Origin: a virus | Direction: 5' to 3' (one strand) | IMG/VR virus record: IMGVR_UViG_3300006880_000001 | Coordinates: 62,001 to 126,000 of that record | DNA: 64,000 bases | In this document: piece by piece, positions 4,069 through 26,066 of the stretch | How the letters are laid out: every line of letters starts with the position of its first letter | Numbering within the stretch: the stretch's first letter is position 1 | The notes under the pieces: model-generated | Seen by the model: only the letters and a program-made list of their open reading frames with translations | Databases searched by the model: none | What the model was told of the DNA's origin: nothing | Program-made: the position numbers and the translations under genes

Positions 4069-4125
4069 ATGGTACACGGACCCCCCGAACTTCGCTAGAT
4101 CGCACCTTCGATCGACTGGTAGAGT
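4069..4125. promoter_or_regulatory. Bidirectional class B promoter region
   Basis: GATCG-CACCTT-CGATC at 4098-4113 lies between divergent genes. Plus strand: TGGTAGAGT (hexamer 4120-4125) is 6 nt before the ATG at 4132. Minus strand: TACCAT (4074-4069) is 8 nt before the ATG at 4060. Both would give leaderless or nearly leaderless mRNAs under one inverted-repeat operator. Confidence 0.6.
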
Positions 4126-4131
4126 GGGGCC

Positions 4132-4680
4132 ATGTCGCTCGGCATGATCACGGTTCCCGGTCTCGGCAACATCGCGTACACGGGGGCCTCGCGCCAGGAC
4201 ATGTCCCTCCTCGGCGCGTTCGGCGCGGACGTACCGGACCCCAACGTCAAGGCGTTGCAGGAGTCGCTGATCAAGCTCACCGTGTACGTTCCGACGGCGA
4301 ACCCCGGCGCCGCCACCGGCATCCTCGACGCCACCACCATCCAAGCGGTCGCCGCGGTCATCCCGACCCTGACCCGCTACCTGTCGAAGGACGTTGCGAC
4401 GGTCATCCAGTTCGCCTTGCTCGGTGCCGGTCTCTCCGAGACCGCCATGAACAAGGCGAAGCCCTACGTGAAGCAGTACGCTCGGGTCATCAAGACGGCC
4501 GTCGACGCCCTCTACATCGAGAAGTCGTCGAAACCCCCGGCGCCAGGGACCACCTCGACGCCGTACTACCAGCCGCAGACGTACGCGACCAAACCCTGGT
4601 ACACGACCGGCGTCGGTATCGCGGCACTGGCGGTCGGAAGCCTTCTTCTCCTCGGCGGCCTCTACGTCGCGGTGAAGTGA
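4132..4680 (+). CDS. C-terminally membrane-anchored protein
   Basis: 182 aa, first gene of a rightward structural-type operon. The N-terminal half (LQESLIKLTVY...TGILDATTIQAVAAVIP) is faintly like a peptidoglycan-binding helical repeat, where a small domain selects for 'G..d..T..Av', but the match is weak. A Pro/Thr/Tyr linker leads to a C-terminal membrane helix (about residues 157-178). Function unknown. Confidence 0.8.
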   Translation: MSLGMITVPGLGNIAYTGASRQDMSLLGAFGADVPDPNVKALQESLIKLTVYVPTANPGAATGILDATTIQAVAAVIPTLTRYLSKDVATVIQFALLGAGLSETAMNKAKPYVKQYARVIKTAVDALYIEKSSKPPAPGTTSTPYYQPQTYATKPWYTTGVGIAALAVGSLLLLGGLYVAVK

Positions 4681-4689
4681 GAGGTCCTC

Positions 4690-4854
4690 ATGCTCCCGAA
4701 CATGTTCTTCCCCGGAAGGGGCTTCCCGCCGACGCCGCCACCACCCAACCCCGAGCAGATCCAGCGGCGCTCCACCACGCTCACCATCGGCATCACCGCC
4801 GGGGTGGCAGTCCTTGCCGCGATCGGCGCGGCGTTCTTCCTCCGCCGTCGATGA
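4690..4854 (+). CDS. 54-aa single-pass membrane protein
   Basis: The short gene starts at an ATG after GAGG. The peptide has a proline-rich N-terminus (FPPTPPPPNP), then a membrane helix (TLTIGITAGVAVLAAIGAAF) and a FLRRR end. It lies directly between two membrane-protein genes in one operon. Tiny tail-anchored proteins of this type are common in membrane-containing virions and among holin or spanin accessories; no specific role can be assigned. Confidence 0.7.
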   Translation: MLPNMFFPGRGFPPTPPPPNPEQIQRRSTTLTIGITAGVAVLAAIGAAFFLRRR

Positions 4855-4863
4855 GGTGATGAA

Positions 4864-5385
4864 ATGGGTATTCGCGACGACCTGATGGCTCTCTTCAAGC
4901 TCATTCCGGGCGGCGGTACCGCAGCCCAGAAGATGACCGACTTCGAGGAGCTGATCAAAGCCAAGGCCCGCGAGGGCGCCGAGCAGGCGATCCCGACGAT
5001 CAAGGCACAGGTCGCCCAGCAGGTGACGCCGTACATCGCGGTGGCCCTCGCACTCGGTGCCATCGGCGCCGTCACCGGCGTCGCCGCCGTGGCGAAGACT
5101 CGCCGTCGCAGCCTCAGCGGCTTCGGGCACAGCGCTGGCGATCACCACGACCGCATGCACACCTCGCTACGGGCGGTGAGCCGCCACGCCAGCACCGCCG
5201 AGGAGGCCGCCTTCAGTCGCCAGTGCAAGCGATCGCTCGCCAACCTCCTGGCGGCGGAACGCGGGCACGGCGAGGCCGACGCCGAGAGCTCGGGGGCTGG
5301 GGAGACGCACAGCCCGGCGCTCCGCGCCCTCGACCGCGCGACCTCGTCCGCGCAGCGCCAGTTCGTCAAGCACTGCCTGAAGTAG
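4864..5385 (+). CDS. Unknown protein with one central membrane helix
   Basis: 173 aa. An amphipathic N-terminal half (EELIKAKAREGAEQ) is followed by a hydrophobic helix (about residues 58-79) and a His/Ser-rich polar C-terminal half. The start ATG follows GAGGTGATGAA. No family recognised; part of the 4132 operon. Confidence 0.75.
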   Translation: MGIRDDLMALFKLIPGGGTAAQKMTDFEELIKAKAREGAEQAIPTIKAQVAQQVTPYIAVALALGAIGAVTGVAAVAKTRRRSLSGFGHSAGDHHDRMHTSLRAVSRHASTAEEAAFSRQCKRSLANLLAAERGHGEADAESSGAGETHSPALRALDRATSSAQRQFVKHCLK

Positions 5386-5398
5386 GCGGCCGTCGACA

Positions 5399-5422
5399 GC
5401 CGGCGGCGCCTGATGGTACGCT
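5399..5422 (+). promoter_or_regulatory. Extended -10 promoter with GCCGGCGG element
   Basis: GCCGGCGG is followed by TGGTACGCT, and hexamer TACGCT ends 6 nt before the ATG at 5429. The same pair of elements (GCCGGCGG, then TGGTACGCT) precedes the gene at 15086, so these two form a third small promoter group. Confidence 0.45.
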
Positions 5423-5428
5423 GCCAGC

Positions 5429-5791
5429 ATGCCTGGCCACGTCGGCGTCTCGCCCGGTACGACCACGCTTCTCCTCGCCGGGCCGTGCTTCCCGATGGGC
5501 GAGGACAAGCCCGACGGTGGCGTCTGGCCGTGGCGCCACAACTGCCCTCAGTGCGCGAAGCCGGCAGCCCCGGCTGCGGCGGCACCGAAGGCGGCGCCGG
5601 CCGCGCCCCCTCCGATCGAGAACCGTCAGCTGTCGGTCTACTGGCCGTACGCACGGGACCAACAGCTCAGAGCCCCACAGCTCCTCGGCGCCGACGGATC
5701 GGCGCAGCACCAGGTCGGGATGGTCGTTGGGTTCCTCGCTGGCCTCGGGGGCGTCCTGCTGCTCGCGGCGAAGATGAAGAAGGGACGCTGA
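5429..5791 (+). CDS. C-terminally membrane-anchored protein sharing VGVSPGTTT
   Basis: 120 aa. The N-terminus carries VGVSPGTTT, identical to the start of the gene at 1-144(-). A CPQC pair, an Ala/Pro-rich linker and a C-terminal membrane helix (MVVGFLAGLGGVLLLAA) with a KMKKGR end follow. The start codon is 6 nt from a -10 hexamer. Its stop overlaps the next ATG (TGATG). Confidence 0.75.
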   Translation: MPGHVGVSPGTTTLLLAGPCFPMGEDKPDGGVWPWRHNCPQCAKPAAPAAAAPKAAPAAPPPIENRQLSVYWPYARDQQLRAPQLLGADGSAQHQVGMVVGFLAGLGGVLLLAAKMKKGR

Positions 5792-6378
5792 TGCGCGACA
5801 TCACCACCATCCTCGGCGCCGCCAACGGCCTGGGCCTTGTCCTCTCCCCCTGGGGCAACCTCCCGAACGGAGGGTCGCCGTGGGAGGTCGAGATGCTCTA
5901 CCCGGTCCCGGAGCCCCTCAAGCCCTACGACGCCATGTACAACACGCGCGGCGAGGCAGGCTTCTACCACGACTCGCCGATGGGTGGTGCGGGGCTCGGC
6001 TACATCCCGACCAACATCCAGGTCTCGAGCCAGGCCTGCTACGTCCCCTTCCAGAACGCGCCGATCACCACCGCCGAGGTCTTCTGGCCGACCTCGTGGG
6101 TGCCGCCGAACGGGTGGTCGCCGGCGGGTGGTTACGGCCCTCAGCCCACGTGGCGGAAGCGGGGTCTCGGCGAGACGGCGGCCGAAGCTGCGGTCGAAGA
6201 CGCCGCGCGCCACCAGCGCAAGGTGTTCATCCTCCAGGTCCTCACGACCACCGCCGTCGTCGCCGTGTCCGCGCTGAACTTCTACCGCGGCATCAAGGAG
6301 GAGGCGGTGAAGCGGCGGGTGGCGAGCGCGAGCGGAACCGCGGGGATCGGGCGCGCCCGGTCTCGGCGTCGGCGTTGA
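5791..6378 (+). CDS. Unknown protein with C-terminal membrane helix
   Basis: 195 aa. The first 130 residues are rich in Pro, Gly, Tyr and Trp (SPWGNLPNGGSPW, WVPPNGWSPAGGYGP), an extracellular or virion-surface style composition. A membrane helix (KVFILQVLTTTAVVAVSAL) and a very basic tail (RARSRRRR) follow. No homologue recognised. Confidence 0.75.
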   Translation: MRDITTILGAANGLGLVLSPWGNLPNGGSPWEVEMLYPVPEPLKPYDAMYNTRGEAGFYHDSPMGGAGLGYIPTNIQVSSQACYVPFQNAPITTAEVFWPTSWVPPNGWSPAGGYGPQPTWRKRGLGETAAEAAVEDAARHQRKVFILQVLTTTAVVAVSALNFYRGIKEEAVKRRVASASGTAGIGRARSRRRR

Positions 6379-6379
6379 G

Positions 6380-6404
6380 GATCCCAGGTTCGATCTGGTA
6401 GCCT
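6380..6404 (+). promoter_or_regulatory. Class B-like promoter
   Basis: GATCC-CAGGTT-CGATC, a degenerate copy of the operator, directly abuts TGGTAGCCT. Hexamer TAGCCT ends 7 nt before the ATG at 6412. The spacer also contains GGGAGG, which could serve as a ribosome binding site if transcription starts further upstream. Confidence 0.55.
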
Positions 6405-6411
6405 GGGAGGC

Positions 6412-6990
6412 ATGACAGCCTTCCTCGCGGCCTCCGACCGGGACAACCTCACGGTCGTTAAGAGGGGCCTCCTCGAGCCGCTGGATGCGCTGATCCGGAG
6501 CCAACTCGGCACCACGCGCGTCCGTACACCCACCTTCGGCTCGGGGCTGGCGACGACCTCGCTGCTCAACACCGGGGTCATCTACTGGCCGCAGAGCGCG
6601 CTCGCCGACGTCCGCCAGGCATGGCAAGGCCTGGCCCAGAGCCACGCGCTCTACGGGCCGGTGGCCGACTTCCCGCTCAAGCCCAGCCTCGACGCCGAGC
6701 CCAGCCTGGCCGAGGGCATCGCGAAGGGCGGCGTCACCGGCGTCGCGCAGGCCACCCAGGCCTTCGTCCTCTTGACGACGCCGCTCGCGGCCAAGGGCGC
6801 CGCGATGCGGTTCTTGACGCTGGCGAACATCGACGAGTCACCGCTCCTCGACACCGCCGCGCTCGTCGGCGGGTCCAAGACCGGCTTCCTGTGGGGCTTC
6901 CTCGCCGGCGTCGGCTACCTGGCGTGGCTCCACCGCGAGGGCATCGGGCACGTCGTCTCGAAGGTTCGAGGCGCGCTGAGGCAGCCATGA
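6412..6990 (+). CDS. Unknown membrane-associated protein
   Basis: 192 aa. A soluble N-terminal half is followed by hydrophobic segments (ATQAFVLLTTPLAAKGAAM and TGFLWGFLAGVGYLAWL) and a basic C-terminus. The stop overlaps the next ATG (ATGA). First gene of a three-gene run 6412-7667 together with a basic mini-protein and a membrane protein. Confidence 0.75.
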   Translation: MTAFLAASDRDNLTVVKRGLLEPLDALIRSQLGTTRVRTPTFGSGLATTSLLNTGVIYWPQSALADVRQAWQGLAQSHALYGPVADFPLKPSLDAEPSLAEGIAKGGVTGVAQATQAFVLLTTPLAAKGAAMRFLTLANIDESPLLDTAALVGGSKTGFLWGFLAGVGYLAWLHREGIGHVVSKVRGALRQP

Positions 6991-7238
6991 AGGGTCCGTA
7001 CTGCGAGAAGGTCGTCCACGCGAAGAGCTACTTCGACAAGCGCAGCTTCCGCACGAAGCGCCGCGGCAAGGTCGAGCTCCTCATCGGGTGCCCCCGTGGG
7101 AAGTGGATGCCCAAGGCGAAGTACAAGGGCAAGAAGGGCCGCTGTGCTGTCGGCACCCGAGCGCACGTGGTGAGGACTCCCCTCAAGGGCATGCGGTGTC
7201 CAGCCGGGGCCAAGCGTCGCACCAGACGAACGAGGTGA
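6987..7238 (+). CDS. Basic Cys-containing mini-protein
   Basis: 83 aa, about one third Lys/Arg, with Cys residues spaced through basic loops (CEKVVHAKSYF, CPRGKWMPKAKYKGKKGRC, RCPAGAKRRTRRTR). No acidic patches. Composition fits DNA condensation or packaging inside a virion, or RNA binding; this is inference. Overlaps the upstream stop by ATGA. Confidence 0.75.
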   Translation: MKGPYCEKVVHAKSYFDKRSFRTKRRGKVELLIGCPRGKWMPKAKYKGKKGRCAVGTRAHVVRTPLKGMRCPAGAKRRTRRTR

Positions 7239-7244
7239 TCTTCG

Positions 7245-7667
7245 ATGTCTCGCCCCAACCAACGCCGTTACGTTCGAACCCTGCCTCGTGCGCCGCGTCC
7301 ATACCGGCGGCGGAGCGCGGGAGCGATCTCCGAGTACGCCCTCGGCGCGCCAGCGCTGCCGACCTACCGGACCGTCGCCGGCGTCCTCGAGAAGAAGACC
7401 GGCTCCGGCGCTGCGCTCGCGGGCTGGACCTTCCTGCGGGGCGTCTTCCTGATCGGCCTGCCGTTCCTCATCGTCGGCACGCCGTGGCGGAAGGTCGTGG
7501 CCGGCGCAGCGCTCTCGTCGTCGCTGATGTCGCTCTTCACGCTCCTGCGCATCTTCAACGCGCGGGAAGAGATCCGACGTGAGATGATCCGTGCCGAGCT
7601 CCCCCGCGTCCCCAACTGGGCGCGGCGGCGGCTCCGCGGTGCTGGCTTCCGTCCGACCGAGGACTAG
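7245..7667 (+). CDS. Small two-helix membrane protein
   Basis: 140 aa. A basic N-terminus (RAPRPYRRRSAG) is followed by two hydrophobic helices (LRGVFLIGLPFLIVGTP and VVAGAALSSSLMSLFTLL) and an Arg-rich amphipathic C-terminus. Its end meets the convergent gene at 7664. Function unknown. Confidence 0.75.
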   Translation: MSRPNQRRYVRTLPRAPRPYRRRSAGAISEYALGAPALPTYRTVAGVLEKKTGSGAALAGWTFLRGVFLIGLPFLIVGTPWRKVVAGAALSSSLMSLFTLLRIFNAREEIRREMIRAELPRVPNWARRRLRGAGFRPTED

Positions 7668-7999
7668 GTCGTCGCCGGTGGTTCGGTGGGCGGCGTCGAC
7701 GACTCCTCGAACGTCGCCCGCAACCGCTCTTCGGTCAGGATCACCCGGGTTCCGTTCGGCAGCGTGACCTCTACGCAATGCGTGCCGTGGACCGCCTTGC
7801 GTACGTCGATGGCGCCGGTGAAGTTGTTGGCCGGGAGCTCCTCGGCGCCGCCGTGGGTGAGGGCAGCGTGGGTGACCACCTGTCCGAGCGCGATGAGCTC
7901 CTCGACGAACCGTCGCACGAGGAGGTCCACGTCCCCGGCGTGCGGGGGTTGGTTGTGGTGCGTTCCCACGCCGCTGATGCTGATGTGCCAATTGCCCAT
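7664..7999 (-). CDS. Conserved-looking small soluble protein
   Basis: 111 aa, starting MGNWHISISGVGTHHN, with a helical middle (DLLVRRFVEELIALGQVV) and a short beta-rich C-terminal part. The WHI.I.GVG.HHN style start recalls small proteins seen in several phages and plasmids, function unknown. It lies downstream of the large coiled-coil gene on the same strand. Confidence 0.65.
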   Translation of the reverse strand: MGNWHISISGVGTHHNQPPHAGDVDLLVRRFVEELIALGQVVTHAALTHGGAEELPANNFTGAIDVRKAVHGTHCVEVTLPNGTRVILTEERLRATFEESSTPPTEPPATT

Positions 8000-14281: not shown

Positions 14282-14638
14282 ATGAACATCGAGGTCAGAC
14301 GCCACACGCCGCGTCCTACGCCCCCACCGTGGCGGTCCATCGCCATCCTGATCCGCACCACCCCCGTTGACAGCACCGAAGCCGTCAACGAGCGCAAGAA
14401 GGTGCTCGTCGCCATCCTTCGCGAAGAGCTTCGTCTCAAGCCCCACCAACTCCGCGTCGCCTTTCGCTTCCGGTACGGCTACGCCATTCACATCCACGTG
14501 TACCGCGGCGAGGGGTCGGACGCCGACCACCGGCTATACCAAGCGTGGGAGACGACCGTCCATCGCTGGGCATACGCGTCGGAGGCTCAGCTACTGGCCC
14601 GCTTCCGCCGCGTCAAGGACAAGATCGACCATGGCTAA
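14282..14638 (+). CDS. Unknown protein
   Basis: 118 aa, ATG two bases after the helicase stop. Alternating beta/helix pattern with a basic helix (TEAVNERKKVLVAILREE) and GYAIHIHVYRGE. The last 8 nt overlap the next gene. No family recognised. Confidence 0.7.
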   Translation: MNIEVRRHTPRPTPPPWRSIAILIRTTPVDSTEAVNERKKVLVAILREELRLKPHQLRVAFRFRYGYAIHIHVYRGEGSDADHRLYQAWETTVHRWAYASEAQLLARFRRVKDKIDHG

Positions 14639-15050
14639 CGACTTCAACACCTGGGTGCTGATCCACATCGACGAAGCCGAGAACGAGGCGCCGCTCATCG
14701 TCGCGCACGCCCTCGATTACGACATCGTCACGCAAGGTCCCTCCATCCCCGAAGCCATGATCGCGGTCTGCGAGGCCGTCCGCATGTTCGTCAGGGAGGC
14801 CGACGACGTACACGTCCGCGCCCCCCAAGACGACTGGGCCATCCTCCACCGGACCCTCGACGGTTCACCCGTAAGCCCAGACGTCATCGCGGCGATCGAT
14901 CCCTGGTCGATCGTCAGCGCCGCCTTCTACGTCTGGGGAGATCAGACGCTGTTCAACATCGCAGGCACGGCCTTCGTCCGTCTCCAGGACACGAACAACG
15001 AGGAGGTCGAGGAGACCGATGAGACCCCGGAGGGGACCCTCCTTTCTTAA
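14631..15050 (+). CDS. Possible HicB-like domain protein
   Basis: 139 aa. The start (LIVAHALDYDIVTQGPSIPE then AMIAVCEAV) resembles the HicB pattern, where a beta hairpin is followed by 'GdT.eEA..n..Ea'. No adjacent HicA-like toxin is visible, so a toxin-antitoxin role is not supported. The C-terminus is acidic. Confidence 0.65.
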   Translation: MANDFNTWVLIHIDEAENEAPLIVAHALDYDIVTQGPSIPEAMIAVCEAVRMFVREADDVHVRAPQDDWAILHRTLDGSPVSPDVIAAIDPWSIVSAAFYVWGDQTLFNIAGTAFVRLQDTNNEEVEETDETPEGTLLS

Positions 15051-20173: not shown

Positions 20174-22054
20174 ATGACCACTGCCCGCGAGAACCTCGGT
20201 CCCGCCGAGACCATCATTCAGGCACTACTCGCGTACACGGACCACCTGGTGCACAACCGCCCCGGCATCGTCACGCCGGATCGGACGGTGACCATTGGCC
20301 TTCGCTGGGAACCCGTGACCCACAAGGTGGAGCAGGACCAGAAGGTCGTCTACCGGCTGACCAAGGTCGGCAAGAAGACGCAGCGGGTCCGCGTTGGGGC
20401 CCTGCGGCCCGACAAGAAGGTGGTCGAGGCCGGGCGGGAGGTTGCCGAGTACCGTGACAGCGGCCTCTTCCCCGAGGTGGCGACCTGGTTCTACCAGCAG
20501 GTCGCCAATGTCTGGCGCCTCGACAACGAGTTCGCCGCGCGGTGGGCGTCGTACGCCTACGGCCAGGAGCACCGTGACCTGAAGTGCGTCCTCGCGGCTT
20601 TCATGCTCGTCCAGACCCGCAAGGGCGACCCGATCGTCGAAGGTGGAGAGGTCCTCTTCCACGACGAAGACTTCCGCGACGTCGGCGAGGCCATGATGCT
20701 CCTCCACAAGAAGGGGGACGACAAGGGCCTGAACCCGAAGCTGCTACTCCGGATCTACGACATCCTGACGCTGCCGGCGGTCGCGGCCATCAACCACGAC
20801 CTCGGCTTCGGGCAGTCGACGCGTCATCCATTCCTCGGCCGCTGGCCGCGGGTGGTGGAGAAGTGGCTCCGCCACCGCGAGGAGAACCCGAAGTTGCTCG
20901 AGGGTCTCATCAAGGCCGGGTTCCGCACGGCGGTCATGGAGCTCGCGCGGCGCGTCGGCTACAAGCCGACCTCCACCCGCTTCTTCGAAGTCCTGCGCTG
21001 GAAGCAGGTCCAGGCCGACGACGGTCGGCGGGAGCTCGCCATCGGGCAGGCTACCGCGGCCGCGGAGAGCTGGGCAGGCCTCTCCGAGGAGCAGATCTGC
21101 CAGGCGATCGTCGCCGCCCGCTACGACTGGAAGCGGATCGTCAGCCTCCTGCCGAAGACCGTCGGCGTCACGCGTGCGGTGATCGCCGCGGCGATGGAGT
21201 CCGGCGGCCTCTCGAACAAGGATCTCGTCATCCTGACGCCCACGCTCGAAGAGCTCGGCCTGCTCGACGTCGGATCGATCAAGGATCGCTGGTCCGCTGC
21301 GCTCAAGGCGGCTGACGACATGCGCGCCAGCAACGTCGCCCGCAACGTTCGCAACAAGGAGACCAAGGAGAAGCTCGAGGAGGCCGCCGACGGCGCGCTG
21401 CAGAAGCAGGTCGAGGCGGTGACCCGCCAGCTGCGGGTCTACTTCATGGTCGACATCTCGGGATCCATGGAGAGCAGCATCGCCACGGCCAAGGAGTACC
21501 TCGCCAAGTTCATCCAGGGATTCCCGTCGGACCAGGTCCACGTCGCGGTCTTCAACACCCAGGGCAAGGAGGTCGCCATCAAGCACCGTTCGGCCGCGGG
21601 GGTCGAGAATGCCTTCCGTGGCTACGTCGCCGGCGGTGGCACCGACTACGGCGCCGGCGTCCGCGCGCTACGTGACCGCAAGCCCAAGGCGGACGAGGAC
21701 GTCCTCTTCATCTTCGTCGGCGACGAGGAGGCTGAGCCCTTCGCCTCGTCCGTGACGCTGTCGGGTCTCAACCCCATGGCCTTCGGCCTGCTCAAGGTTC
21801 GCCCGACGGGGGCCGGGTTCCGGGGGGTCCAGGATCACAACGCCGCCGTGCGCGAGACGGCGCGGCAGCTCAAGATTCCGTGTTTCCCGATCGAGGAGGC
21901 GATCTTCGCCGACCCCTACGCGATTCCGCGCACCATCCGCGCGCTGATCGCGGCGACGCCGATCACGCAGACGACGACGACGGTCACGCCGCGCAAGACC
22001 CTGATCGACCAGATCCTCAAGACCGAGCTCCTGACGAAGCCGACCTGGGCCTGA
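20174..22054 (+). CDS. Ro60-like TROVE/vWA RNA-binding protein
   Basis: 626 aa, near the usual size of bacterial Ro60 (about 540). An N-terminal helical-repeat TROVE-like region (about residues 20-400: WFYQQVANVWRLDNEFAARW, LPAVAAINHDLGFGQ) is followed by a von Willebrand A domain with an intact MIDAS: D427-I-S-G-S in MVDISGSMESS, T490 in GGGTDYG, D517 in FVGDEE. Ro60 family proteins form a ring that holds single-stranded ends of misfolded RNAs and Y RNAs. First gene of an operon that continues to the E1-like gene, with tRNA-like genes beyond it. Assignment strong for vWA, good for TROVE. Confidence 0.85.
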   Translation: MTTARENLGPAETIIQALLAYTDHLVHNRPGIVTPDRTVTIGLRWEPVTHKVEQDQKVVYRLTKVGKKTQRVRVGALRPDKKVVEAGREVAEYRDSGLFPEVATWFYQQVANVWRLDNEFAARWASYAYGQEHRDLKCVLAAFMLVQTRKGDPIVEGGEVLFHDEDFRDVGEAMMLLHKKGDDKGLNPKLLLRIYDILTLPAVAAINHDLGFGQSTRHPFLGRWPRVVEKWLRHREENPKLLEGLIKAGFRTAVMELARRVGYKPTSTRFFEVLRWKQVQADDGRRELAIGQATAAAESWAGLSEEQICQAIVAARYDWKRIVSLLPKTVGVTRAVIAAAMESGGLSNKDLVILTPTLEELGLLDVGSIKDRWSAALKAADDMRASNVARNVRNKETKEKLEEAADGALQKQVEAVTRQLRVYFMVDISGSMESSIATAKEYLAKFIQGFPSDQVHVAVFNTQGKEVAIKHRSAAGVENAFRGYVAGGGTDYGAGVRALRDRKPKADEDVLFIFVGDEEAEPFASSVTLSGLNPMAFGLLKVRPTGAGFRGVQDHNAAVRETARQLKIPCFPIEEAIFADPYAIPRTIRALIAATPITQTTTTVTPRKTLIDQILKTELLTKPTWA

Positions 22055-22063
22055 GGGGGCATC

Positions 22064-22435
22064 ATGGCGAACCCCGTCGAGATCCCCGTCCTCGAGATGC
22101 TCGAGGCCTACCGCAAGCTGGAAGATGCCCTCGCAGCCGTCTTCGGCTTCGATCCCTGTGCGTACGCCGGATTCGGCGACTGCACAGACATGTGGTGGGT
22201 GTCGGATGGCCGGAAGGTGTGGTCGAGCGATCAACAGCTCACCGAGGAGGTGATCACGGCTGGGCGCCACCTCTATTCCCACGTGATCAAGGAGACGCGA
22301 CGCTGCGGTTCCTACGTCGCGTTCCAATTCGAGACGGACACCGACTCGGAGATCGTAGATCTCGTTCACGTGTTCACCACCGATCTCCAGATCCATGACG
22401 AGGGACTCCTCGAGATCGCCCAGGAGACCTGGTGA
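22064..22435 (+). CDS. Unknown protein in TROVE/E1 operon
   Basis: 123 aa, soluble, with CAYAGFGDCTDMWWVSDGR and an alternating beta C-terminal half. The start follows GAGGGGG; the stop overlaps the next GTG (GTGA). No family recognised, but the tight coupling indicates it belongs to the cassette. Confidence 0.7.
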   Translation: MANPVEIPVLEMLEAYRKLEDALAAVFGFDPCAYAGFGDCTDMWWVSDGRKVWSSDQQLTEEVITAGRHLYSHVIKETRRCGSYVAFQFETDTDSEIVDLVHVFTTDLQIHDEGLLEIAQETW

Positions 22436-23382
22436 GCTGGCGAGATCTCCTCGGATCGTCTGACCAGACGATCACGTTGCCGTGGGTGGGTGGAGCGACC
22501 CTGCACGGACCGCGGTCTTGGTGGACCATCACCTACGAGGCGATGCGGTTCCTACGAGGCCACGATCACGGCTGGTACACCTTCCGCATCGATCGCCGCT
22601 GCGTCACCGATCCGCAGCCGGCGGAGCCCGATCCGACGGCCCTCCACTTCGACGCCCACGGGTACCTCGTCGGGGACCGCCTCGCGCGCTGGGACATCCG
22701 GCCTCGCGCAACTGAGCCTGCCGCCATCATCAGCTACACGGAGCCCGTCTTCCTCATCGACCCGGGCCTCGACCGGTTCGTACGCGTCAGCGCGGGCCGC
22801 GTCTACGAGCGCGGTCCCCTCATCTACCGCCAGCAAGAGATGCCGGTCGGGCCGGAGCAGGAGGTCCTCACGGCCTTCCTCGATCGGGCAGAGAACGTCG
22901 ACGCGGTCAGCGGTGTGTCGCCGGCGCTCGAGGCGGCCTTCCGAATGGAGACCCACCAGCGCGCGGAGGCGGAGCGACGTCGAGAGGAGCTCCGCCAAGA
23001 AGCGGCCCGCCTCGAGACGGAGCGTCAGGAGGCGGAACGTCGCCAGCAGATCGTCCAGCAGCTCGGCGACGGAGCGGGCCGACGCGCGGTCGCCCGGACC
23101 GACTTCGGCGACGCCGCGCGAGCGGCCCTCGCCATCGTGGACGCCGAGCTCATCGACCACCGTCGAGGACAGCGCGGAGAGTACGTCGTCCGCTACCGGA
23201 TCGAGAACCGACGCTTCGAATGCGTCTGTGACGAACAGCTCCGGATCATCGACAGTGGTATCTGCCTCGCTGACCACGCGACCGGCGAGAAGGGCGATAC
23301 ACGCTTCACGCTCGAGTCCCTCCCGACGGTCATTCGCCAAGCCATCCGCGAGAACCGCCTCGTCGTCTACCGACACGTCTGA
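22432..23382 (+). CDS. Two-domain unknown protein in TROVE/E1 operon
   Basis: 316 aa from a GTG overlapping the upstream stop. An N-terminal beta-rich domain (GGATLHGPRSWWTITYEAM) spans about residues 1-130. A charged coiled coil (about 175-220, RREELRQEAARLETERQEAE) follows. The C-terminal domain (about 235-316) has RRFECVCDEQLRIIDSG and a short helix. Cys residues in this domain could be catalytic or metal-binding. It occupies the place where an E2-like or adaptor protein might be expected, but I see no E2 signature. Confidence 0.7.
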   Translation: MSWRDLLGSSDQTITLPWVGGATLHGPRSWWTITYEAMRFLRGHDHGWYTFRIDRRCVTDPQPAEPDPTALHFDAHGYLVGDRLARWDIRPRATEPAAIISYTEPVFLIDPGLDRFVRVSAGRVYERGPLIYRQQEMPVGPEQEVLTAFLDRAENVDAVSGVSPALEAAFRMETHQRAEAERRREELRQEAARLETERQEAERRQQIVQQLGDGAGRRAVARTDFGDAARAALAIVDAELIDHRRGQRGEYVVRYRIENRRFECVCDEQLRIIDSGICLADHATGEKGDTRFTLESLPTVIRQAIRENRLVVYRHV

Positions 23383-23396
23383 AGAGGAGCAGGGAC

Positions 23397-23750
23397 ATGG
23401 ACATGAAGCTACCCCTCGTATCGCCAACGAACTCCGATCAGGATGTGGTGTTCGTATCCAACCTCGTCATCGGCCCCGGTGTGGTCCTGGAGGTGCAACG
23501 GACGGCTCCTGCCAAGGCAGGCAGAGTTGTCCAGGTGTGCATCCACGGTTGCATCGTCGACGGACGTCCGTCGCAGCACAGCGATGCCCCGCTCATCACA
23601 CTCGTCGATGCTGACGATCGGATGGTCCTCGTCATCAAGGACGCGATCATCACACGCCAAGGACCTGATCTGGCGTCCCCGATCCCCGCCGAAGTGCCGG
23701 TGGTCGAGTGGACCTCGCTGCCGCCCGAACCGCCCGAGCCCAAGGAGTGA
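23397..23750 (+). CDS. Small beta-rich unknown protein in cassette
   Basis: 117 aa. The predicted fold is a string of beta strands (VVFVSNLVIGPGVVLEVQR, GRVVQVCIHGCIVDG, MVLVIKDAIIT) with a disordered Pro/Glu tail, reminiscent of small beta-barrels. The start follows GAGGAG. Unknown function; lies just upstream of the JAB gene. Confidence 0.65.
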   Translation: MDMKLPLVSPTNSDQDVVFVSNLVIGPGVVLEVQRTAPAKAGRVVQVCIHGCIVDGRPSQHSDAPLITLVDADDRMVLVIKDAIITRQGPDLASPIPAEVPVVEWTSLPPEPPEPKE

Positions 23751-23755
23751 CCGTG

Positions 23756-24190
23756 ATGGAAACCGGCGTCCTCATCGCCAGGGGCATGGCCCCCCTCTAC
23801 TGGCACTTGCCGGAAGGGCGAACCTCCGGTAGCTTGCCCGACTCGCGCGTGCTGTGGGACACCATCTGGCTCCACCGCCACGACCTGGAGGGCTTCGCGC
23901 ATACCCACCCCGGCGGCGGCCAGCCGTGGCCGTCGACCGAAGACATCACCACCTTCTTCGCCATCGAGCTCGCGCTCGGGCGCAAGCTGACCTGGTGGAT
24001 CAGCAACCAGGAGCGGACCGTCGTCGTCGTCACCACCGACGACTACGAATTCGACCACGGCGACACGCGGGTCACGAAGTCCGGCGAGGTCATCGAAGGT
24101 CAGAAGTCCCGCCGTCAATCGTATCGCGTCTTCCCGATCCCCGACGAACCGTCCTGGGTCGCCGAACTTCGCCATCAATCCAACCTCTGA
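23756..24190 (+). CDS. JAMM/JAB-family metallopeptidase (deubiquitinase-like)
   Basis: 144 aa, a minimal JAB domain. The zinc-site signature H-x-H-P-x(n)-S-x2-D is intact: H49, H51, S60, D63 in GFAHTHPGGGQPWPSTEDI. A possible upstream Glu (E2 or E20) would complete the site. JAB enzymes cleave isopeptide or peptide bonds after ubiquitin-like C-terminal Gly. It is followed 9 nt later by a ubiquitin-like gene whose product ends Gly-Arg, which would need exactly such trimming. Start: ATG after AAGGAG; an in-frame GTG precedes it. Confidence 0.85.
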   Translation: METGVLIARGMAPLYWHLPEGRTSGSLPDSRVLWDTIWLHRHDLEGFAHTHPGGGQPWPSTEDITTFFAIELALGRKLTWWISNQERTVVVVTTDDYEFDHGDTRVTKSGEVIEGQKSRRQSYRVFPIPDEPSWVAELRHQSNL

Positions 24191-24199
24191 AGGAGCACC

Positions 24200-24496
24200 A
24201 TGAACGAACTGATCCATGTCGAGGGCCGCCGCGAGCTGGTGCGCGACGACGAAGCCCGCGTCAACATCACCTACAAGGGCGAGAACGGGGACCTACCGGA
24301 CACCATCACCTTCGATGCCACCGACGCTGACGTCAAGACGTGGGTCACGGAGGCAGTCCGGGGCGGGCACGTTCCGGGCATCGCCGCCGACCCCGGCGCG
24401 AACTTCCGCGACTTCGTCGTCGATCGCTTCACGCCCACCGACGCGCGGCCGTTCAACCTCATCTCGATCCGCCCGAAGACGCCGTTCGGCCGATGA
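24200..24496 (+). CDS. Candidate ubiquitin-like (beta-grasp) modifier
   Basis: 98 aa. Predicted order beta (ARVNITYKG), beta (DTITFDAT), helix (DADVKTWVTEAVRGG), beta (FRDFVVDRF), beta (FNLISIRPKT), which is the beta-grasp pattern. It ends TPFG-R, so removal of one residue would expose a C-terminal Gly as in ubiquitin precursors. Size and position between a JAB peptidase and an E1-like gene recall the ubiquitin-like protein C of the PRTRC plasmid cassette. No sequence-level match to ubiquitin is claimed. Confidence 0.7.
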   Translation: MNELIHVEGRRELVRDDEARVNITYKGENGDLPDTITFDATDADVKTWVTEAVRGGHVPGIAADPGANFRDFVVDRFTPTDARPFNLISIRPKTPFGR

Positions 24497-24849
24497 TGAA
24501 CGTCGTCAAGCGATGCCCGGGGTGTGGCGCTACGTGGGTTACGCCCCCGGGATCGATCATCAAATGCCGGAACTGTGGGACGACCTGCGCCGGCACGACG
24601 TCCGTCGCGTTTACCACTGACGCCCCCACGGTACAGACGGCGGACGGTGATGAGACCGCAACAGCGCTCCAACTGGCCGACGCCAAGGTCACGGAGGCCA
24701 GGGATGCGCTGCAGGCTCTCGTCAAGGCGAACCCTGCCCTCGTCCATCCTCAGTGCCGCACGTGGCAATGTCGTCGGTGTCGGCTACGCAACACGATCGA
24801 GATGCTCGAGTGCTGGGAGCCACTTTCACAGGAGGCGAAGAAGTCATGA
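24493..24849 (+). CDS. Double zinc-finger protein with NZF-like half
   Basis: 118 aa, overlapping the ubiquitin-like stop (ATGA). N-terminal zinc ribbon C8-x2-C11...C25-x2-C28. C-terminal finger W91-x-C93-x2-C96-x3-N100-x6-C107 follows the RanBP2/NZF consensus except that the last Cys is Pro110; C88 could substitute. NZF fingers in eukaryotes bind ubiquitin. A helical linker joins the two. The role as reader or ligase-like adaptor for the adjacent ubiquitin-like protein is inference. Confidence 0.75.
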   Translation: MMNVVKRCPGCGATWVTPPGSIIKCRNCGTTCAGTTSVAFTTDAPTVQTADGDETATALQLADAKVTEARDALQALVKANPALVHPQCRTWQCRRCRLRNTIEMLECWEPLSQEAKKS

Positions 24850-25439
24850 CCACCGTAGCGGGTGAGCAGCGGATCGTCATTGCGGGCATCGGAGCGTTGG
24901 GGTCGCATCTCGTGCCCCTGCTGAGGAATCTCCCCGCCGACCTTGTCGTGGTCGACTTCGACCGCGTCGAGAAGAAGAACGTGGCCTCGCAGTTCTACGG
25001 CACCTCCACCGTGGGCCAAACGAAGGTGGAGGCCCTGAAGCGCCTCATGCTGTTCCTCTACGCCGCGCCCGTGCAGGCGAAGGGGTATCGGATCTCCGAG
25101 GCGAACGTCGATGTGCTTCTGGCCGGCGCGACGCTGGTCGTGGATTGCCTCGACAACGGTGATGCGCGTCGACTCGTCCAAGGCTTCGTGCGCCGGCACA
25201 AGGTACCGTGCGTGCACGGCGCCCTCGCCGCCGATGGCAGCTTCGCCCGCGTGATGTGGGACGAGGCGTTTGTCATCGACAACGAGGACGTCGTCGGTCA
25301 GCCGACCTGCGACGGCGGCGAGCACCTGCCGTTCATCGCCGCCACGGCGGCGTGGCTCGCGCAGGCGGTGCAGACGTTCTGCCGGAGCGGAAAACAGTTC
25401 AACTACTATGTTTCTCCGGCGAACGTCATCTTGCTCTGA
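24846..25439 (+). CDS. ThiF/MoeB/E1-like adenylating enzyme
   Basis: 197 aa, overlapping the zinc-finger stop. Rossmann-type G14-x-G-x2-G (IVIAGIGALGSHL), VVDFDRVEKKNVASQFY with the conserved Asp/Asn/Gln of ThiF-E1 enzymes, K60, D100 in VVDCLDN, and candidate catalytic C155 in GQPTCDGGEH. The CxxC zinc pairs of MoeB are absent and the protein is short, as in minimal bacterial E1s. It would adenylate the C-terminal Gly of the ubiquitin-like partner. Last protein gene of the cassette. Confidence 0.85.
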   Translation: MTTVAGEQRIVIAGIGALGSHLVPLLRNLPADLVVVDFDRVEKKNVASQFYGTSTVGQTKVEALKRLMLFLYAAPVQAKGYRISEANVDVLLAGATLVVDCLDNGDARRLVQGFVRRHKVPCVHGALAADGSFARVMWDEAFVIDNEDVVGQPTCDGGEHLPFIAATAAWLAQAVQTFCRSGKQFNYYVSPANVILL

Positions 25440-25510: not shown

Positions 25511-25640
25511 GAAGGGTAAGGGGACCGGGTCCCCGCCAACTGCTAAATTGGTCCACCCCGACAACGCCTCTCGCTGGCCTCGGCTAGCACACGGCAGCTG
25601 TCTACAAGAACGGTCGGTTCGACTCCGACACCCTTCCCCA
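25511..25640 (+). tRNA. tRNA-like gene, anticodon GCT, with 52-nt insertion
   Basis: Acceptor GAAGGGT pairs fully with ACCCTTC, discriminator C, encoded CCA (25638-25640). D-arm GGGG-ACCGGGT-CCCC; anticodon arm GCCAA/TTGGT with an 8-nt loop containing GCT (25542-25544), nominally Ser. T-arm GTCGG-TTCGACT-CCGAC. Between anticodon and T arms lie 60 nt, of which 25557-25608 is nearly identical to the insertion in the next tRNA-like gene. Total length 130 nt. It may be a tRNA with a giant variable region, a tRNA carrying an intron-like element, or a tRNA-mimicking noncoding RNA. Confidence 0.65.
25557..25608 (+). repeat. 52-nt insertion, copy 1
   Basis: 48 of 52 positions match the copy at 25718-25769. 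The core can fold as GCTGG-CCTCGG-CTAGC, flanked by GCC...GGC. It ends CTGTCTACAAG. It sits in the variable region of the first tRNA-like gene. Confidence 0.8.
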
Positions 25641-25670
25641 CTTCGCTGACAACTGAATAATGACCATTTC

Positions 25671-25803
25671 CGGGGGGACGTCGCCTGGTGGCGACACTTT
25701 CATATGACGAAAGCAATCCCGACAACGCCTCTCGCTGGCCTTGGCTAGCACATGGCGCCTGTCTACAAGGAAGCCGTGACAGGTTCGATTCCTGTACCCC
25801 CGA
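25671..25803 (+). tRNA. tRNA-like gene, anticodon ATG, with 52-nt insertion
   Basis: Acceptor CGGGGGG pairs with ACCCCCG at six of seven positions; D-arm GTCG-CCTGGTGG-CGAC; perfect anticodon arm CTTTC-ATATGAC-GAAAG (anticodon ATG at 25704-25706, nominally His); perfect T-arm ACAGG-TTCGATT-CCTGT. The CCA is not encoded (CTG follows). The variable region is 65 nt and includes the second copy of the insertion. A34 in a His anticodon is unusual, which adds to the doubt that this is an ordinary tRNA. Confidence 0.6.
25718..25769 (+). repeat. 52-nt insertion, copy 2
   Basis: Differs from copy 1 by two C/T changes, both in predicted loops, and an AG/GC dinucleotide. The flanking tRNA sequences are unrelated, so the block moved or was conserved as a unit. 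Confidence 0.8.
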
Positions 25804-25832
25804 CTGAGCGCAGTCATTTCGAGGTGCTTACA

Positions 25833-25907
25833 CGCGAAGATGCTCATTGGTCGAGCATCGGCCTTAAGAGCCGACAGGAGTCGGTTCAAATCCGACCTAC
25901 GCACCCA
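25833..25907 (+). tRNA. tRNA-like gene, anticodon TAA (Leu)
   Basis: D-arm GCTC-ATTGGTC-GAGC, anticodon arm TCGGC-CTTAAGA-GCCGA (anticodon TAA, 25865-25867), 5-nt variable loop, T-arm GTCGG-TTCAAAT-CCGAC, encoded CCA. The acceptor CGCGAAG/CTACGCA has two mismatches. A short variable loop is atypical for bacterial tRNA-Leu, so identity is uncertain. No 52-nt insertion. Confidence 0.6.
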
Positions 25908-25992
25908 ACTCAGCCCCTCTCCTCGACCGCGCTCGTTATTTGACCGAAGGGTTGTGGGTCGCCCGCCAGATCGGTGCGGTGAACTACACCTC

Positions 25993-26042
25993 GGCCGCCA
26001 TCCTCGCCAACCAGCTGCAATTGGTTGGTGAGGGTGGCGGCC
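25993..26042 (+). ncRNA. 21-bp stem-loop after the tRNA-like genes
   Basis: Arms 25993-26013 and 26022-26042 pair at all 21 positions, two as G-U, with an 8-nt loop (GCTGCAAT); CTCAGCCTTTT follows. It may be a terminator, a processing site or a small structured RNA. The same bases are also open in one frame (TTG at 25940 to TGA at 26057, 39 residues), so a short coding function is not excluded. Confidence 0.6.
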
Positions 26043-26066
26043 TCAGCCTTTTGGGGTGAGCGGAAT

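Follow-up and report, generated by a model that had tools for sequence, protein, structure and literature searches.

A stretch of 64,000 nucleotides (nt) from a virus (positions 62001-126000 of the 129-kb record IMGVR_UViG_3300006880_000001, hereafter the window) contains, downstream of a gene for a divergent Ro60-like protein, two putative genes for RNAs that have the arms of a tRNA and a long additional stem in the variable region. We consider, with a probability of about 0.8, that they encode phage Y RNAs which are unpermuted and tRNA-ended, and which would dock on the phage Ro60 and present the tRNA body as effector module. The observations behind this reading are the structure of the RNAs, its covariation, shared motifs, the co-occurrence with the Ro60-like gene and a tRNA-like 3' sequence; from them we infer the Ro60 binding, the maturation and the effector role. 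The layout, in the order acceptor, D arm, anticodon arm, strand, apical loop, strand, T arm and acceptor, will be called type C.

RNA 1 (25511..25640, + strand) scored 64 in a scan for tRNA geometry and 82.5 bits with R1, a covariance model of type C RNAs described below, and RNA 2 (25671..25806, + strand) scored 62 and 62.3 bits. The gene proper of RNA 1 covers 25511-25636, with the acceptor at 25511-25517/25630-25636, a D arm, an anticodon arm with an 8-nt loop (CTGCTAAA), the Y stem in the variable region and a T arm with TTCGACT. A CCA follows the acceptor at 25638-25640, giving a CCCA 3' end. The gene proper of RNA 2 (25671-25802) is followed by ACTG and is made of the acceptor CGGGGGG/ACCCCCG, a D arm GTCGC-CTGGTG-GCGAC, an anticodon loop ATATGAC with an A34 anticodon, and a T arm with TTCGATT. 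Both RNAs thus have all four arms (acceptor, D, anticodon, T) in the same order as a tRNA, and the sequence after the acceptor is of the N-C-Y-R/CCA form in both (CCCA and ACTG). The acceptor stem is paired at 7/7 positions in RNA 1 and 6/7 in RNA 2, and the distance from the anticodon arm to the T arm is 60 and 65 nt, respectively. The minimum-energy folds consist of a cloverleaf plus the insert stem (z -2.6 for RNA 1 and -3.4 for RNA 2, the T arm being mispaired in part in the latter). A previous sequence-only reading of the window had described two tRNA-like genes with these four arms and 60-65 nt before the T arm, and both the pairing and the folds bear it out.

Neither RNA was called by ARAGORN or by Rfam at the gathering threshold, and the intron options of ARAGORN gave no gene. 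BLAST comparisons of the RNA cluster against phages and plasmids produced nothing, or merely short tRNA matches. Like the class II tRNAs (Ser, Leu, Tyr and Sec) the window RNAs have a long variable arm between the anticodon and T arms, but here the insert reaches 60-65 nt, has conserved motifs of its own and is accompanied by anticodons that are not bound to those amino acids. Selenocysteine tRNA was considered and rejected, with Rfam scores of 30.9 and 27.8 bits, under the cut-off of 47, and no UCA anticodon.

The shared part of the insert is a block of 52 nt (25557..25608 in RNA 1 and 25718..25769 in RNA 2, + strand), identical at 48/52 positions (92%), while the tRNA bodies are only ~53% identical, so that the earlier claim of a common 52-nt insertion stands. 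In RNA 1 it consists of the strand CCCGACAACGCCTCTCG, an apical hairpin GCTGGC-CTCG-GCTAGC and the strand ACACGGCAGCTGTCTACAAG. The stem has a lower helix (GACA/TGTC and GCC/GGC), an internal loop TCTC/ACAC or ACAT, and an apical helix GCTGGC/GCTAGC closed by the loop CTCG or CTTG. The motifs CTC and ACA[AC]G are common to the 30 aligned type C RNAs. Two copies so similar within tRNA bodies that otherwise differ could suggest that a mobile sequence, as had been proposed, or a repeat inserted twice into tRNA genes. We find this barely credible: the block is not a common repeat, since the 129-kb record contains two copies only and an exact 21-nt probe from it had no match in other viral contigs; elsewhere it is conserved as a structure, not as a sequence, at one fixed site of tRNA-like RNAs. 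Gene conversion or a recent duplication could account for the similarity between the two copies.

The protein encoded at 20174..22054 (+ strand; hereafter the 20174 protein) starts with a beta region, followed by helical repeats and a C-terminal VWA domain. Sequence searches with it (Pfam, NCBIfam, PHROGs and PDB) found nothing useful or VWA only. Its 51 homologues were all given VWA only by Pfam, the TROVE family (PF05731) was found in none of them, and this family had no match anywhere in the record. A structure model built from the 51 sequences (mean predicted local distance difference test, pLDDT, 84) was compared by Foldseek with the PDB, and the top seven matches were Ro60/TROVE structures with E values from 1.7e-7 to 5.5e-6, including the TROVE domain 9kop, the Ro60 of Thermus phage phiLo (9l5y) and Xenopus Ro60 (1yvp, 1yvr and 2i91). 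These matches span the full length of the protein and outrank every plain VWA protein; the global template modelling (TM) scores were low (0.19-0.39), leaving the relative placement of the domains uncertain. An earlier model from 10 sequences was weaker, and VIA-align on that model gave VWA matches alone. The predicted fold, with helical repeats and VWA over the full length, is that of 9l5y, 1yvp and 9kop, whereas the additional N-terminal beta region and a divergence too large for Pfam TROVE set the protein apart from known Ro60. We therefore take it as a divergent Ro60, as modelled: its previous assignment to TROVE holds by predicted fold and not by Pfam. The RNAs had also been placed directly behind a TROVE/E1 operon; they do lie behind the E1 (ThiF) gene, and the Ro60-like gene is ~3.5 kb upstream.

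Other phage loci were reached through viral contigs that encode relatives of the 20174 protein. Model R1 was built from a MAFFT alignment of 30 type C RNAs, whose consensus contains the acceptor, D, insert and T helices. In this set 22 of the 23 consensus pairs have changes on both sides, and the paired cells amount to 85.7% compared with 58.6% after shuffling. The covariation score was 0.677 compared with 0.199, a value that none of 500 shuffles reached. R1 gave 87 matches of at least 42 bits in the 53 loci searched; full-length matches under 42 bits were mostly ordinary tRNAs. A scan for tRNA geometry with inserts carrying the ACA[AC]G motif had no match when all loci were shuffled five times with a first-order Markov model. 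In scans of whole records with a homologue of the 20174 protein (TROVE records), type C RNAs were found in 38 of 44, a few of the records being close relatives of each other: all 24 IMG/VR records of one set and 14 of 20 in a second set. They often belong to the same cluster as the Ro60-like gene. In the same scan with a covariance model, a check that the sequence-only reading had proposed, none of the four control phages G, Sixama, LR756500 and pir03 has a type C RNA (the best score was 34.9 bits, with ordinary tRNA lengths). Since pir03 carries Ro60, type C is not general to phage Ro60. Furthermore, a pattern search blind to TROVE retrieved four new records, and the sole one that passes R1 also encodes a Ro60-like protein. 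The records G264, G265 and G267 from this search fail the model, have no TROVE gene and were taken as chance or tRNA-array matches.

The related phage loci contain RNAs in three orders that use the same two strands, one with CTCG beside the distal helix and the other ending in ACA[AC]G. Besides type C, there is a type A (strand, T arm, loop-closed acceptor helix, D arm, anticodon arm, strand) and a type B (strand, D, anticodon and T arms, strand). In both of these the tRNA-like core lies between the two strands, which occupy the two RNA ends. The type B arrangement had matches in 33 loci, a count that includes near-duplicates and a few matches that are probably ordinary tRNAs. The type A and type B scans each had no match in one set of shuffled loci, and a few of their matches in the real loci look like adjoining ordinary tRNAs.

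The order of type A is the one found in the Rfam consensus of YrlA (Y-stem, T arm, closed acceptor, D arm, Y-stem), where AcUuG adjoins the terminal helix. The insert strand with CTCG stands in the place of this AcUuG, and the other strand is only loosely alike. One type A RNA, of locus L006, scored 30.1 bits against the YrlA family (RF02553, gathering score 69), and no Rfam match to this family was found in the window. Because type A has the YrlA order and the shared strands, type C is a YrlA-like RNA that opens at the acceptor stem instead of the Ro60 stem. YrlA (RF02553; 6CU1) and the window RNAs have in common a Ro60-type stem beside the T arm, D and T arms like those of a tRNA, an acceptor-like helix, an ACUYG-type motif beside the terminal helix and genes near Ro60. 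They differ in that YrlA is circularly permuted, with the acceptor helix closed by a loop and the ends at the Ro60 stem, whereas the window RNAs keep the tRNA order with free acceptor ends, a full anticodon arm and a stem closed by a tetraloop, and do not score at YrlA level. YrlA is reportedly without a free CCA end, a description going back to Wang and colleagues in 2018. Vertebrate and Deinococcus Y RNAs also have a Ro60 stem with a conserved internal loop, but not a tRNA-ordered body with acceptor, D and T arms. The structure 6CU1 superposes on tRNA given a circular permutation (PMC11472068), and the basal stem of YrlA has been credited with Ro60/Rsr binding (PMC8394870).

These comparisons suggest that the insert is a Ro60-binding module, one of the possibilities raised before: its strands are those of the YrlA-type terminal stem in related phages, and the one record retrieved blind to TROVE that passes R1 also has a Ro60-like gene. 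They also make it very improbable that the insert behaves like an intron or removes itself, a proposal for which one could cite a tRNA-gene insert beyond the tolerance of the standard tRNA finders. The insert is outside the anticodon loop, is ~60 nt long and matches no Rfam intron family. Excision would be senseless in types A and B, whose outer stem is built from these strands at opposite RNA ends, and in type C RNAs a covarying stem is kept across dozens of phages.

Types A and C alternate in tandem in several phages, for instance at L035 (type C at 14472, type A at ~14620 and type C at 14750), L026, L050 and L030. Within a row of tandem type C units, the 3' half of each unit and the 5' half of its neighbour together make up a type A unit, so that a register shift suffices to interchange the two types. 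The permutation probably arose by tandem duplication and a register shift, judging from the order of the arrays. As both registers adjoin in the same arrays, the type C family offers a concrete route from a tRNA to the permuted YrlA.

The tRNA-like body was characterized in 55 parsed type C RNAs. C74 is present in 54 of them and CCA in 15, compared with 616 and 233, respectively, of the 645 ordinary tRNAs of the same loci, and the next-commonest triplets after the acceptor are the same in both (CTA, CTG and CCG). This coincidence fits a shared maturation and suggests a tRNA-like processing of the 3' end in type C RNAs. The T loop reads TTCGANT in 53/55. The anticodons are scattered, include A34 forms (AUG, AUC and AAU) and vary among related phages at the same array position; 8-nt anticodon loops are found in 15/55, and the D arm with its linker is frequently non-canonical. 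Considering ends, T loops and anticodons together, processing and modifying enzymes would see the body as a tRNA, but it is unlike a dedicated decoder, as far as can be read from the sequences. For the same reason it is unlikely that type C RNAs are working decoding tRNAs to which a Ro60 stem was added for protection, sorting or repair by Ro60. Their acceptor, T and anticodon arms are complete and the 3' sequence is tRNA-like, as such a role would demand, but so variable a set of anticodons, with A34 forms and 8-nt loops, and the irregular D arm and linker speak against it. One pattern in its favour is that all five type C RNAs with anticodon UCC (L035 15164, L026 15999, L048 15712, L031 17161 and L015 20982) have U73, the discriminator of glycine tRNAs (a post hoc observation, permutation p 0.023 overall), a possible hint of charging. 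A rather unlikely variant would make type C RNAs true hybrids, either charged tRNAs or CCA-ended look-alikes engaging synthetases, EF-Tu or CCA enzymes, docked on the phage Ro60 ring, with YrlA derived by register shift in tandem arrays. If true, the Ro60 particle would present an aminoacylatable acceptor end.

Under the Y RNA reading that we favour, the insert would be a Ro60-docking stem that a tRNA body carries after its anticodon arm and before its T arm. The lower helix of this stem is followed by a conserved internal loop, in which one strand has CTCG, and then by an apical helix capped with a tetraloop. Binding of the stem by the divergent Ro60 whose gene lies upstream would keep the tRNA body on the protein surface, as effector or decoy. 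With its free acceptor end and tRNA-type 3' sequence, a type C RNA is probably excised from the transcript of a tRNA array by the tRNA maturation enzymes. YrlA (type A) would be the same RNA in the other register, with the acceptor closed by a loop and the ends at the Ro60 stem. The stem might instead bind another phage or host protein, considering that the adjacent operon also has E1-like and JAB-like proteins. This is quite unlikely, because type C co-occurs with a Ro60-fold protein and both stem and motif stand at the Ro60 place of YrlA.

Several observations weigh against docking on a phage Ro60. The 20174 protein is not recognised by the Pfam TROVE model, and its profile comparison with cellular TROVE was weak (probability 12%), though colinear. 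The 5' strand of the phage stem resembles the known Ro60 site only loosely. Six of the 44 TROVE records have no match above threshold (four are shorter than 17 kb, one has 43 kb and one, with a weak match, 161 kb), and Rctr197k has no type C RNA in a scan of the whole record. Finally, the co-occurrence is independent only in part, because most records had been selected for carrying TROVE.

Type C RNAs and a distant Ro60-like protein are encoded by dozens of related giant phages. It would seem that a complete Ro60 particle, with more than one Y RNA, is part of the equipment of jumbo phages, and that phage Y RNAs are overlooked or given a wrong name in tRNA annotation. A family that keeps the free acceptor end addresses the question of what the tRNA-like part of bacterial Y RNAs does, and makes it possible to ask whether the body of a Y RNA is matured, modified, charged or cut like a tRNA.

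The adjacent tRNA-Leu at 25833, which the earlier reading did not include, belongs with RNA 1 and RNA 2. This putative type B Y RNA 3 (25806..25934, + strand) is made of the strand GAGCGCAGTCATTTCGAGGTGCTTACACG, a tRNA-like core with D, anticodon and T arms, and the strand CAACTCAGCCCCTCTCCTCGACCGCGCTC. The core (25833-25907) is called tRNA-Leu(taa), and ARAGORN and Rfam see the core alone. The flanking strands contain ACACG and CTCGAC and pair with each other; therefore this 'tRNA-Leu' is the core of a type B Y RNA and the cluster holds three Y-type RNAs.

A reduced Y-type RNA, with Ro60-type strands flanking two small hairpins and no T arm, was seen at L011 11265-11395 (also at L009 ~21510-21620). 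In myxobacterial chromosomal TROVE loci, Rfam calls adjoining 'tRNAs' of 122-136 nt with free acceptor ends (L066 396-521; L067 3267-3391, 3523-3647 and 3778-3902; L069 2302-2423; L071 1015-1150; L077 516-645; L068 3211-3341). Most have a Y-like stem (CYTYG and GGCCGA-type strands) in the anticodon position, and in one L067 copy CCA follows the acceptor. Free-acceptor Y-type RNAs may thus exist in bacteria too, with another layout.

The operon between the Ro60 gene and the RNAs (22064-25439) includes a JAB-like protein (23708..24190, + strand) with a weak match under the cut-off (Prok-JAB, E 0.002) and, directly upstream of the RNA cluster, a ThiF/E1-like adenylating enzyme (24753..25439, + strand; ThiF, E 3e-21), whose low-score matches include PRTRC ThiF and E1-E2 defence models. 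In Rctr197k (L003) a ThiF-like gene is likewise found downstream of TROVE, and thirty tRNA genes (4070-7899), with no type C RNA, lie directly upstream of TROVE. Directly 3' of the RNA cluster, the window has a near-perfect long hairpin (GGCCGCCATCCTCGCCAACCA / TGGTTGGTGAGGGTGGCGGCC, 25993-26044), perhaps a terminator-like or processing element.
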